DNA from: Spirochaetales bacterium | Lineage (GTDB): Bacteria > Spirochaetota > Spirochaetia > Sphaerochaetales > Sphaerochaetaceae | Direction: 5' to 3' | Assembly (NCBI GenBank): GCA_017614375.1 | Contig: JAGABZ010000006.1 | Span: 62,001-126,000, forward strand | Length of the DNA: 64,000 bases | The notes under the pieces: model-generated | What the model was told of the DNA's origin: nothing | What the model saw: the letters and a program-made list of their open reading frames with translations, nothing else | Database searches by the model: none | Shown here: positions 9,772 to 30,877 of the stretch, piece after piece | Layout of the letters: each line of letters opens with the position of its first letter | Numbering within the stretch: position 1 is the first letter of the stretch | Translations under genes and position numbers: made by a program

Positions 9772-10227
9772 CTATCTGAGTTTTGCTTCGAACTGCTTCC
9801 TGTCCAGAAGCTCGAAGAACAGTGTACGCCCGTCTTTGAGTCTGACCAGGGTGACCAGGCGGCGCAGGATTCTCTCCGCGGTCCCGGCGGGTTTCAGACA
9901 CTCGGGGTCTCCGGTGCGGAAAAACGATACTGCCCTGACTTTTGAGACTTCGGTGACCGATTCGACGTCGGCCGGGGTGAATGAGCCCTGAAGCTTCTCG
10001 TACTCAGGCTCGTTCTTTCTTTTGGGAAGTTTGTAGCCCAGCAGGGTCGGGCGGTGCTCGAAGTCCTCGTACCACAGGACAGAGTCGATTTCATAGAGGA
10101 AAACGCCGTACTCGCGGAGGTTCCTGCCGTCGCAGAACCATGTGCTGTAGGTTCTCCAGCCGACCTTGCCGCCGCGTCTGCTTTCGATTTCCGAGAGGAA
10201 GTCCGCGGGGTTGCTGTTGTCTGTCAT
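9772..10227 (-). CDS. Conserved hypothetical protein, 151 aa
   Basis: Not recognised. The start at 10227 (MTDNSNPADF) is preferred over longer frames because GGAG lies 8 nt upstream and the extension would run into the divergent promoter and gene. The protein is soluble, with no signal peptide, and rich in Glu, Arg and aromatic residues. Visible landmarks are GGKVGWRTYSTWFCDGRNL (a WRT-YST-W-D pattern) and a Lys/Arg-rich middle (YKLPKRKNEPEYEKL). It ends with a beta-rich segment (LVRLKDGRTLFFELLDRKQF). It lies divergent to the methyltransferase gene. Confidence 0.6.
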   Translation of the reverse strand: MTDNSNPADFLSEIESRRGGKVGWRTYSTWFCDGRNLREYGVFLYEIDSVLWYEDFEHRPTLLGYKLPKRKNEPEYEKLQGSFTPADVESVTEVSKVRAVSFFRTGDPECLKPAGTAERILRRLVTLVRLKDGRTLFFELLDRKQFEAKLR

Positions 10228-10254
10228 CTTCTTCTCCAAGTCCTTTGCTTTGTG

Positions 10255-10260
10255 TATAAT
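10255..10260 (+). promoter_or_regulatory. -10 box for the methyltransferase gene
   Basis: A perfect TATAAT in the 87-bp gap between the divergent genes at 10227 and 10315. The -35 region is weak. The start site would be about 10267, so the GTG at 10315 has a leader near 48 nt carrying CAGGA. Confidence 0.55.
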
Positions 10261-10314
10261 ACCACAGATGCCGCCGTCGGCGGAACAACGCAGTTCACTA
10301 TCAGGACCGAAGCG

Positions 10315-11973
10315 GTGGAATTCTTCGAAAAGGATTTCGGAAAGATACTCAAGCACAACGCGCTTCAGATGCGCCGGCTCTTTATCGCCACGGACACCGA
10401 CTGCGGTCGTGTTTATGACCGGAATCTGGAGCAGTATCCCGTGACGGTCGACCTATACGGTCCTTTTGTCCGCATCACCGACTACAGCGATTCCGGTCTG
10501 GACGATGAAAAGGCCGCCGAGGTCATCGATATCTGCCGGCGGATGCTTTATGTCGAAAAGGACCGGGTAATTCTCCAGCGCCGCCCGAAAAGGGAGGGCA
10601 GGGAGCAGCACGAACTGCAGGACGAACAGGCATTGACCGTGGACGTGAAGGAAAACGGCCTGACTTTCCGGGTGGACCTGACGAGCCATATCGACACCGG
10701 GCTTTTCCTGGACCAGGTGAAAAACCGGATGATGGTCCGCTCAAGAAGCGCCGGCGCTGACGTGCTGAATCTGTTCTCCTACACGGGAAGTTTCTCCGTC
10801 TATGCCGCTGCGGGGGGGGCCAGGTCGGTCACCTCTGTCGACTTGTCGAACACCTACACCGCCCAGGCGCGGGCTAATCTCGGCGCAAACGGTTACAGCG
10901 GAGACAATTACGCCTGTATCTGCGCCGACGCCCTTTCTTTCGTGACCGAGGCGGCGGCAGAGCACAGGAAATACGACATCATAGTCTTTGACCCGCCCTG
11001 CTTTTCAAACAGCAGGAAAATGGATTATGACTTTGATGTCCAAAGGGACTACGGGCGCTGGCTGGGAAAACTGTACGGGATCCTGCGAAAGGGGGGCTTC
11101 ATCCTCTTTTGCACGAACCTGACAGGGTTCCGGATGAACGCCGCGCTGAAGAAAAAAGCCGGGCTGAGGGAAATCACCGTCAGTTCCCGGGCTGAGGGAT
11201 TCACGCACCGCCAGGCTGCGGTGAGGAGTTGGATTTTGGAAAAGGATGATGATTATCTGACGCTGGACTGGGATGATGCAGAGCCGGCGGACGGTGCCGG
11301 CAGAGGCACATCGAAGGGAGGCCGGGTCAAGTCTTCACCGGACTACGGAAAGAACGAATGGAAACCGGATCGTCCCCGCCGTGACAATGACAGGCGGCCT
11401 GCTTACCGCGACCGCGATGACGGATACCGTGGCGACAGGCCCCGGCGCGACTACAGGCGTGAGGGCTCCGAGAGGGATTCATACCGCCGTGACGACAGGT
11501 ACCGCCGCGATGACCGCTCCAGGCGTGATGAAGGGGGACGTGATTCCTACCGGCGTGACGACGGCTACCGCAGGGATGAGCGCCGCCGGGACTATGACGC
11601 CCGTCCCCGCCGCGAAGGCTCTTCGTACAGGGACGATTACAAGAGAGACGGTTACAGGAGGGACGACTATAAGAGGGACGATTCCCGCCGCCGTGAGGAT
11701 TCCGGTGAATACAGAAACTCCGAGCGCCCCCGCAGGGACTACCGCCGCGATGACCGGGAACGCGACTTCCGGGAGCGCCCCTACAGCGACCGCCCGCGCC
11801 GCGAATACAGAGATTCCGACAGGCCTGCCCGCCGCGCCCAAGGCGGGGATGACAGAAAACCGGCGAAGCAGTCCAGACCGTACGGCTATGATTCGTTCAA
11901 GCCGGCCCGCGACCGGAAGGACTCCAAGATGTTCTTCTGGCTGGACGAGGAAGACGACAAGAAAGACAAGTAA
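10315..11973 (+). CDS. RlmK-like 23S rRNA methyltransferase with Arg/Asp/Tyr-rich tail
   Basis: A class I SAM-dependent methyltransferase resembling the C-terminal (RlmK) half of RlmL, which makes m7G2069. The frame is open far upstream, but GTG at 10315 follows AGGA and starts where the family does (EFFEKDFGKILKH). Landmarks are YDRNLEQYPVTVDLYG, HIDTGLFLDQ, the SAM loop LNLFSYTGSFSVYAA, VDLSNTY, and the catalytic FDPPCFSNS. Near residue 320 the domain ends. About 230 residues of low complexity follow, dominated by RRDD, YRRD and DRPRR blocks, then a short acidic end (FFWLDEEDDKK). The tail is probably disordered and RNA-binding (inference). glnS follows 25 bp later. Confidence 0.85.
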   Translation: MEFFEKDFGKILKHNALQMRRLFIATDTDCGRVYDRNLEQYPVTVDLYGPFVRITDYSDSGLDDEKAAEVIDICRRMLYVEKDRVILQRRPKREGREQHELQDEQALTVDVKENGLTFRVDLTSHIDTGLFLDQVKNRMMVRSRSAGADVLNLFSYTGSFSVYAAAGGARSVTSVDLSNTYTAQARANLGANGYSGDNYACICADALSFVTEAAAEHRKYDIIVFDPPCFSNSRKMDYDFDVQRDYGRWLGKLYGILRKGGFILFCTNLTGFRMNAALKKKAGLREITVSSRAEGFTHRQAAVRSWILEKDDDYLTLDWDDAEPADGAGRGTSKGGRVKSSPDYGKNEWKPDRPRRDNDRRPAYRDRDDGYRGDRPRRDYRREGSERDSYRRDDRYRRDDRSRRDEGGRDSYRRDDGYRRDERRRDYDARPRREGSSYRDDYKRDGYRRDDYKRDDSRRREDSGEYRNSERPRRDYRRDDRERDFRERPYSDRPRREYRDSDRPARRAQGGDDRKPAKQSRPYGYDSFKPARDRKDSKMFFWLDEEDDKKDK

Positions 11974-11998: not shown

Positions 11999-13684
11999 AT
12001 GGAAGAAGCTGGCAATTTCATCGAGAGAATCATTGAGGACGATCTGGCCTCGGGAAGGGTACCCGGCAACACCATCGTTACCCGCTTTCCCCCCGAACCG
12101 AACGGATATCTGCACATCGGTCACATCAAGTCGATCTGCCTGAACTTCGGACTTGCCCAGAAGTACAACGGCGTCTGCCACCTGCGTCTGGATGACACCA
12201 ACCCGGCCAAGGAGGAGACCGAGTATATCGACTCGATCAAGTCCGACATACGCTGGCTCGGTTTCGACTGGGGAGAGCACGAGTACTACGCCTCGGATTA
12301 CTACGACACCCTCTATGAAATCGCCGTCCGCCTGATAAAGGAGGGCAAGGCCTACGTCGACAGCCTCAGTCCGGAAGAGGTCAAGCTCTACCGCGGCACC
12401 CTGACCCAGCCGGGCAAGAACAGCCCCGACCGGGACCGCAGCGTCGAGGAGAACCTCCGTCTGTTCGAGGAGATGCGCCAGGGAAAGCATCCCGAGGGCA
12501 AATACGTGCTGCGCGCCAAACTCGACATGGCCAGTCCGAACATCAACATGCGCGACCCGGCCCTGTACCGGATCAAGTTCGAGAGCCATCCCCGCACCGG
12601 GGATAAGTGGTGCGTCTATCCGATGTACGACTTCACCCATCCGATAAGCGACGCCATCGAGGGCATCACCCACAGCATCTGCACCCTGGAGTTCGAGGAC
12701 CACAGGCCGGCGTACGACTGGGCCACCTCGATCGACGGCATCGAGCACACACCGCACCAGTACGAGTTTGCCCGCCTGAACATCAACCACATGGTCCTGA
12801 GCAAGCGCAAGCTCCTGCAGATGGTCAACATGGGGCTGGTCGACGGTTGGGACGACCCGAGAATGCCCACCGTCAGCGGAATCCGCCGCCGCGGATATTC
12901 TCCCGAGTCGATGCGCGACTTCGTCCGCCGCGTCGGGGTCGCCAAGGTCGAAAGCGTCGTCGACTACTCCCTGATGGAGTTCTGCGTCCGCGAGGACCTC
13001 AACAAGCGCGCCCGCCGCGTCATGGTCGTCCTTGACCCGATCAAGCTGGTCATCGACAACTATCCCGCCGGTCAGACCGAAATGATCGAGGCTGACAACA
13101 ACCCGGAGGACCCGTCCGCCGGAAAGCGCCTGATTCCCTTCTCCGGCGAGCTCTACATCGAGCGCGAGGACTTCGCCGTCGACCCGCCCAAGGGCTATCA
13201 CCGCCTGTACGTCGGAAACGAGATCCGCCTGAAGCACGCCTACTACGTCACCGCCACCGGTTATGAAACCGACGCGGACGGAAACGTGACGGTCGTCCAC
13301 TGCACCTATGACCCCGAGTCCCGCGGCGGCACCACACCCGACAACCGCAAGGTCCGGGGTACCAGCCACTGGGTCAGCGCAGATGCGGCCATCTCAGCCG
13401 AGATCCGCCAGTACGACAAGCTTTTTTCCGCCGAGGACCCGGGGGCGCGCACTGGAAACTACCTGGATGACCTCAACCCGGATTCGCTTAAGGTCCTGAC
13501 AGGCGCCAAGCTCGAGCCTTCGCTCGCCGATGCGGTACCCGGACAGTACCTGCAGTTCATGCGCAGCGGCTACTACATGGCCGACTCCAAAGACAGCAGG
13601 CCTGACCACCTGGTCTTCAACCGCACGGTGACCCTGAAGGACTCCTGGGAAAAGCTCAAGCAGAAGCTCAACTCACCCGCGTAA
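11999..13684 (+). CDS. glnS: Glutaminyl-tRNA synthetase
   Basis: Class I aminoacyl-tRNA synthetase charging tRNA-Gln, 561 residues, full length. The HIGH motif is in PPEPNGYLHIGH (about residues 31-42) and the KMSKS-like motif is VLSKRKL. LRLDDTNP and the C-terminal beta-barrel anticodon-binding half are present. A GAGGCG-type site lies a few bases before the ATG. Having GlnRS means the organism need not make Gln-tRNA by the GatCAB route. Array B begins 90 bp after the stop. Confidence 0.97.
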   Translation: MEEAGNFIERIIEDDLASGRVPGNTIVTRFPPEPNGYLHIGHIKSICLNFGLAQKYNGVCHLRLDDTNPAKEETEYIDSIKSDIRWLGFDWGEHEYYASDYYDTLYEIAVRLIKEGKAYVDSLSPEEVKLYRGTLTQPGKNSPDRDRSVEENLRLFEEMRQGKHPEGKYVLRAKLDMASPNINMRDPALYRIKFESHPRTGDKWCVYPMYDFTHPISDAIEGITHSICTLEFEDHRPAYDWATSIDGIEHTPHQYEFARLNINHMVLSKRKLLQMVNMGLVDGWDDPRMPTVSGIRRRGYSPESMRDFVRRVGVAKVESVVDYSLMEFCVREDLNKRARRVMVVLDPIKLVIDNYPAGQTEMIEADNNPEDPSAGKRLIPFSGELYIEREDFAVDPPKGYHRLYVGNEIRLKHAYYVTATGYETDADGNVTVVHCTYDPESRGGTTPDNRKVRGTSHWVSADAAISAEIRQYDKLFSAEDPGARTGNYLDDLNPDSLKVLTGAKLEPSLADAVPGQYLQFMRSGYYMADSKDSRPDHLVFNRTVTLKDSWEKLKQKLNSPA

Positions 13685-13773: not shown

Positions 13774-13901
13774 GAGTATCCGAGAAACGTCCTCGTACCC
13801 CTGAAAACGGATACTCGAGTATCCGAAAAACGCCCTGAGGCCCCCAAAAATGGATACTCCTGTATCCGGAAAACAGCCATGACACCGGTTTTTCGGATAC
13901 A
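13774..13901. repeat. Array B: three tandem inverted-repeat units, 43-bp period
   Basis: GTATCC starts at 13776, 13819 and 13862; GGATAC at 13809, 13852 and 13895. Steps of 33 and 10 alternate exactly. The outer arms are GAGTATCC/GGATACTC in units 1 and 2 and TGTATCCG/CGGATACA in unit 3, so the third unit changed on both sides together. Interiors are about 27 nt and related (GAGAAACGTCC, GAAAAACGCCC, GAAAACAGCC). It occupies the 343-bp gap between convergent glnS and the fused transporter gene, which otherwise holds only a hairpin at 13988-14015. Confidence 0.85.
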
Positions 13902-30754: not shown

Positions 30755-30877
30755 TTTCCGAATAAGAGGCCGAAAAACGGGGTTTGATTCTGAAATTTCC
30801 GAACTGGAGGGCCAATTTCAAGGTTTTATTCTGAAATTTCAGAATAAGAGTGCCAATTTCGAGGTTTTATTCTGAAA
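30755..30877. repeat. Array C: three tandem inverted-repeat units, 41-bp period
   Basis: Dyad centres fall at 30754.5, 30795.5, 30836.5 and 30877.5, exactly 41 bp apart. The central one (30826-30847) is a perfect 22-bp palindrome, TTATTCTGAAA plus its complement; the outermost two are half-sites. Unit 3 has perfect 11-bp arms, TTTCAGAATAA (30837-30847) and TTATTCTGAAA (30867-30877). Interiors are related (GAGTGCCAATTTCGAGG, GAGGGCCAATTTCAAGG, GAGGCCGAAAAACGGGG). The array lies 48 bp after the CDF gene and 46 bp before the PlsC-like promoter; the 252-bp gap holds no gene. Confidence 0.88.

Follow-up and report, generated by a model that had tools for sequence, protein, structure and literature searches.

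The open frame at 10315–11973 on the plus strand of the window, by which is meant the whole 64,000-nucleotide stretch of DNA that was analysed, comprises 552 codons with a GTG start at 10315 and a stop codon at 11971–11973. An ATG is located at the position homologous to the GTG in the two relatives of the same genus that are named here (L004 and L005; one Spirochaetales MAG and one Sphaerochaetaceae MAG). The host genome is 1.54 Mb in 17 contigs and 98.4% complete. Downstream, glnS (11999–13684) begins 25 bases past the stop of the tailed gene, and in L004 and L005 its place is taken by ORFs of 413 and 414 codons respectively (amidohydrolase-like by eye); a long antisense ORF past the 413-codon ORF suggests that glnS of L004 is located further on. 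The divergent neighbour at 9772–10356 (minus strand, 194 codons) is without a Pfam match, and a similar ORF of 163 codons is found at its position in both L004 and L005.

Residues 1–308 of the product (10315–11238, plus strand) constitute an RlmK-type SAM-dependent methyltransferase domain according to NCBIfam PRK11783, Pfam (PF10672 and PF03602) and the PDB entry 3v8v, where residues 394–699 are matched with an E value of 8.8e-54. The match to PRK11783 covers only the K half of the model (positions 396–702) with 268.8 bits, and the protein is therefore no full RlmKL, for which both halves are needed and the curated cut-off is 466 bits. Residues 7–308 of the protein align with the K domain of E. 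coli RlmKL in 3v8v, including the SAM-binding segment and DPPxFSNS..MDxxFDVQRD, so that the whole K domain is aligned with its SAM-binding and DPPxFSNS segments kept; the SAM-binding residues are those that we presume from this domain type. The protein differs from E. coli RlmKL in being without the RlmL half, in the added tail, and in its ending, where the FxRNxxIHxCW of E. coli RlmK is not kept and GFTHRQAAVRSW stands instead. A full RlmKL of 744 residues (L002), scoring 776.9 bits and thus above the cut-off, is coded elsewhere in the same genome and largely retains an ending of this type, the related RNRRIHYCF. Since the genome also has this separate RlmKL, the tailed gene is a paralogue, and the RlmK-like domain proposed in the initial annotation is borne out by all three sources as far as the fold is concerned. 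The K domain of RlmKL makes m7G2069, and separate RlmK and RlmL proteins occur in other bacteria, as described in the relevant part of PMC11194073. The RlmKL of the host may already make m7G at 23S rRNA position 2069, and the tailed enzyme probably methylates ribosomal RNA as well.

The tail consists of the 244 residues past residue 308 (R64, D52, Y20, G18, S17, E16, K15 and P14), with 26% Arg and 21% Asp, in agreement with the Arg/Asp/Tyr-rich extension that had been annotated here. The open frames of 100 codons or more in the 64-kb window gave 3234 slices of a hundred residues each. Ranked by R+D content, the top 16 were all located in or at the edge of the tail (0.43–0.61), the richest slice outside it reaching 0.37. 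Shortly after the domain there is a motif LTLDWDD (residues 315–321, 11257–11277, plus strand), evident from the alignment of the three same-genus proteins, which in many relatives comes just after the domain and in others after an acidic insert. It precedes an Arg/Asp-rich core of 195 residues (11293–11877, plus strand), delimited by composition, with 32% R, 19% D, a charged fraction of 0.62, a net charge per residue of +0.10, 0.5% aliphatic and 9.7% aromatic residues. Within the core, on the same strand, are a YGKNEW segment (11344–11361) that aligns with FGQNEW in both same-genus relatives, and an imperfect 15-bp tandem repeat (11629–11683; Tandem Repeats Finder, 3.7 copies with 77% match). 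The protein ends in a conserved peptide, PYGYDSFKPARDRKDSKMFFWLDEEDDKKDK (residues 522–552, 11878–11970, plus strand), defined by alignment and profile matches. Judged by its composition and a structure model of low confidence, the core is presumably disordered; the model, built from an alignment of three sequences (window, L004 and L005), is poor with a mean pLDDT of 43. The tail has no match in Pfam or PDB, and a search of the genome for a second copy returned only the tail itself at a meaningful E value, besides one weak match (E 0.056) with an internal stop.

The domain is matched in all 139 Sphaerochaetaceae genomes, a count that includes RlmKL, and 105 loci from 104 of these genomes were surveyed, G129 being counted twice (L084 and L181); in the remaining family genomes the locus was either not fetched or gave no hit at the orthologue level. 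A contig end cuts 17 of the loci, leaving 88 with an uncut frame. An uninterrupted R/D-type tail followed by the terminal peptide, as detected by regular expression, is present in 79 of the 88, and the tail is thus a real feature, as had been proposed, and not one that relatives lack and that a frameshift explains in the window. A frameshift or other artefact in the window was also considered directly and rejected, since the peptide at the far C-terminus is conserved in frame in the relatives. The other nine uncut loci are two with a variant terminal peptide (L080 and L092), two with undetermined bases (L047 and L070), four that are frameshifted (L055, L056, L084 and L181, with undetermined bases also in L056) and a sole intact orthologue without a tail, L111 of G017. 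In two of the 79, those of G028 and G062, the tail is short and rich in Lys but retains a PYGMD peptide at its end. The orthologues of G017, G028 and G062 sit on long branches, that of L111 being very long.

In Spirochaetota as a whole, 64 of 392 genomes contain a match with an E value of 1e-50 or better, 34 of 36 in the family and 30 of 356 outside it. In each of the 30 outgroup loci the protein stops no more than about 65 residues past the last aligned position. An R/D tail is absent from all of them, though at least five carry a short extension, mostly basic and very roughly 20–45 residues long. A quick tree was built from 76 rows, namely 45 loci of the family, 30 of the outgroup and one RlmKL. 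A single branch, with an SH-aLRT of 100, leads to the tailed loci, and the presence or absence of a tail requires two changes, which fits one gain and one loss. The arm and the peptide were added to the enzyme once, on the stem of the Sphaerochaetaceae. As the stand-alone enzymes of the outgroup are without an arm, catalysis is probably independent of it, and the retention of the domain-tail-peptide layout through the family suggests that the tail does a job.

The consensus of the terminal peptide in the family is [K/R]PYG[Y/F]D.F...R.R, and an alignment of 20 C-termini reads K-P-Y-G-Y/F-D-x-F, then R-x-R, often with FFW near an acidic end. Among 75 compared tails the G is invariant and P, D, Y and the later R are kept in 72, 70, 69 and 68 respectively; a regular expression for the FFW-like part matched 44 of 77 tails. 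A profile of the peptide gives one strong match in each of 120 of the 139 family genomes, always in the tailed ORF or a contig fragment of it, and no match in the 356 Spirochaetota genomes outside the family. This single strong match per genome led us to reject the idea of a docking motif common to several proteins. Weak matches (E 0.001–0.05) were also seen in several genomes at positions 16–32 of an ORF of about 450–470 residues. Between pairs of loci the peptide is 84% identical where the domain identity is 70–80% and 90% identical where it is above 80%; in distant pairs peptide and domain are about equally conserved (53%), and throughout the core is less conserved than either. The conserved peptide, the restriction to a single family and the second, complete RlmKL were not part of the initial annotation.

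The 79 complete tails range from 115 to 658 residues, in line with the earlier expectation that the tail changes in length. Their composition is much more uniform, with a charged fraction of 0.55 (sd 0.05) and a net charge per residue of +0.03 (sd 0.045). The share of Arg in Arg+Lys is 0.80 in the tail against 0.53 in the domain and is higher in the tail in 78 of 79 cases, down to a GC3 of 0.15, and GC bias was therefore rejected as the source of the Arg. For the cores, from which L112 and L113 were excluded as too short, the mean net charge per residue is +0.07 with a maximum of +0.13. Charges are better mixed than in shuffled sequences in 74 of 77 cores, with z below -2 in 53, and in 76 of 77 the aromatic residues are spaced more evenly than expected at random, although both properties partly follow from tandem repetition. 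Aliphatic residues make up 2.0% of the cores compared with 25.4% of the domain, whereas aromatics are nearly as frequent in the cores (9.7%) as in the domain (11.1%). Arg averages 28% of the core whatever codons are used (76 cores, one more locus being dropped from the codon and frame analysis), a constancy that is partly built in through the Arg threshold that defines the core; 86% of the Arg codons are AGA at GC3 0.15, shifting largely to CGC and AGG at GC3 0.74–0.85. Between species the composition is more alike in frame 0 than in frames 1 and 2. The composition is thus under constraint at the protein level, while sequence and length are free to drift.

The tails of RNA helicases and cold-shock proteins, to which the tail had initially been likened, are net basic and RGG-like. 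This likeness is not supported, the tail being a near-neutral, well-mixed Arg/Asp polyampholyte without the strong net positive charge of a basic DEAD-box-type tail. In the same genome, the main DEAD-box helicase (L037, G000:C17, 514 residues) itself has a Lys/Ala-rich C-terminal tail without R/D repeats. Bacterial SR-related and DEAD-box low-complexity proteins (PMC9479744) also carry an Arg-rich extension on an RNA enzyme, but SR-related proteins as defined there are Ser/Arg-rich with S+R of at least 70%, whereas here Asp balances Arg and the host is a methyltransferase. The composition agrees better with the arginine-enriched mixed-charge domains of eukaryotes as delimited in the relevant part of PMC9324279, that is R together with D, Arg over Lys, near-neutral and with mixed charges. 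The Arg/Asp domains described there go to nuclear speckles, and an increase in net charge per residue, up to +0.2, is reported there to strengthen their incorporation. The bacterial tail resembles them in being mainly R and D, well mixed, near-neutral and with Arg preferred over Lys; it differs in being bacterial, fused to a methyltransferase, about 10% aromatic and ended by a peptide, and no homology is claimed.

At the DNA level, the initial description of the tail as an imperfect repeat needs qualifying. In the window the tail DNA is only weakly repetitive, and Tandem Repeats Finder detects the one short array of 3.7 copies; near-perfect tail repeats are found in relatives of the genus g16. 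Several different codons are used to spell the RRDD and YRRD blocks in the window. The single-contig assembly of G110, also of genus g16, has more than one frameshift in the tail: at L055 (G110:C1:2835600-2840200) the tail passes through every one of the three frames on its way to the terminal peptide, and each frame holds stretches that code for R and D. The frameshifts of G110 may reflect decay or assembly error, and frameshifts, real or from assembly, are present in a few relatives (G110, G111 and G129). Contig ends fall inside the tail at 15 of the 105 loci and at or in the domain at two, a comparison in which domain-broken loci are under-sampled, so that contig ends in the tail are only suggestive of repeats. 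The near-perfect repeats of g16, the repeated frameshifts of G110 and the contig ends inside the tail might be taken to mean that the tail is without function, a product of DNA repeat expansion or of a frameshift past the true stop. This is very improbable, as the Arg content hardly changes between GC3 0.15 and 0.85 while the codons do, the composition is most alike between species in frame 0, and the far end carries a conserved in-frame peptide.

Our best explanation, which we put forward tentatively and at somewhat less than even confidence, is that a paralogous RlmK-type enzyme is held at the pre-50S particle by an adhesive arm and a docking hook. The initial annotation had already suggested that the tail might tether the enzyme to ribosome precursors or drive condensates. 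The enzyme, paralogous to the K half of RlmKL, would be an unfused RNA methyltransferase of the RlmK type, and the C-terminal peptide would be the hook for one partner, which could be a factor of ribosome assembly, a ribosomal protein or the domain of the enzyme itself. The arm would constitute a long, soluble linker that tolerates changes in length. Its Tyr/Phe and Arg residues, spaced at even intervals, could engage rRNA and other arms in weak multivalent contacts, and arm and peptide together would concentrate the enzyme locally on pre-50S particles. Against this explanation stand the tail-less orthologue of G017, the two short Lys-rich orthologues of G028 and G062, the outgroup enzymes that have no arm, the poor structure model, which carries no information on docking, and the 33 of 77 tails in which a regular expression did not detect the FFW-like part, besides the contribution of tandem repetition to the even spacing and mixing.

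The arm might instead be the driver of a condensate: an arginine-enriched mixed-charge domain in the full sense, associating with itself by way of Arg-Tyr and Arg-Asp contacts and forming or joining a ribosome-assembly condensate in the cell. The strong preference for Arg over Lys, the kept and evenly spaced aromatics, the removal of aliphatics and a composition like that of the R/D domains of PMC9324279, with a mean core net charge of +0.07, are in its favour, and we consider it unlikely but worth keeping in mind. In the peptide experiments of that paper the alternating peptides (DR)12 and (D4R4)3 did not phase separate, while the blocky D12R12 did and took up RNA, and the charges of the cores here are well mixed; the peptides were, however, without aromatics and the comparison is therefore imperfect. 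With the evenly spaced Tyr and Phe that the present tails have in addition, condensation is still conceivable. The same experiments speak against the idea of a plain RNA tether, where the tail would be a nonspecific RNA-binding extension comparable to the basic DEAD-box helicase tails, since well-mixed R/D peptides neither took up nor condensed with acidic partners in that work. The RNA methyltransferase context, the slightly positive core of the window and the short basic extensions of at least five of 30 outgroup loci, a possible precursor, are consistent with a tether, but the net charge is near neutral with Asp close to Arg throughout, and a purely RNA-binding tail leaves the conserved terminal peptide unexplained, which makes it rather improbable. 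In a further reading only the terminal peptide counts and the arm serves as an inert zwitterionic spacer, a passive linker or solubility bristle, and a length that varies from 115 to 658 residues while the ends are kept would suit this well; an inert spacer, however, needs neither Arg over Lys at low GC nor an even spacing of aromatics, and we hold this reading to be doubtful. A bolder proposal, that the arm is a bacterial counterpart of the eukaryotic Arg/Asp domains which evolved once on an RNA methyltransferase paralogue and gathers ribosome precursors in a condensate-like zone of assembly gated by the peptide, is likewise of low probability.

A folded RNA enzyme followed by a presumably disordered arm of variable length and a conserved peptide at the end has parallels in other bacterial proteins. 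E. coli SSB has a disordered linker and a conserved C-terminal tip (PMC12143593), and shares with the tailed enzyme a folded nucleic-acid domain, a variable disordered linker and a short conserved C-terminal peptide; the linker composition, the peptide sequence and the domain are all unrelated, and the analogy is one of layout only. Bacteroides Rho, as described in part of PMC13269538, has a disordered region that keeps its composition and not its length, with short conserved motifs that control condensation. It is likewise a bacterial RNA-related protein with conserved composition and short motifs, but its KE-rich and prion-like subdomains are internal, whereas the R/D tail here is C-terminal. 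No paper on the tail itself was found in a search of the open-access literature. The tail is a case of an Arg/Asp mixed-charge domain kept by bacteria, which have no nuclear speckles. Some eighty complete variants of it are available from nature, nearly constant in composition although their sequence has turned over, and they are a ready-made comparison set for asking what a disordered region must keep: its balance of charges, the preference for Arg over Lys, the spacing of its aromatics or its length. The short conserved peptide is in addition a concrete bait for a ribosome-assembly partner.

Two further tandem repeats are located in the window. About 2.6 copies of a 43-bp unit are found at 13774–13886, between glnS and the next gene; the ends of the unit are complementary (GAGTATCCG...CGGATACTC), and one more partial match of 73 bp (86%) is present in the genome on contig C1. 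The other, at 30781–30877, is a 41-bp repeat with 2.4 copies and 87% match.
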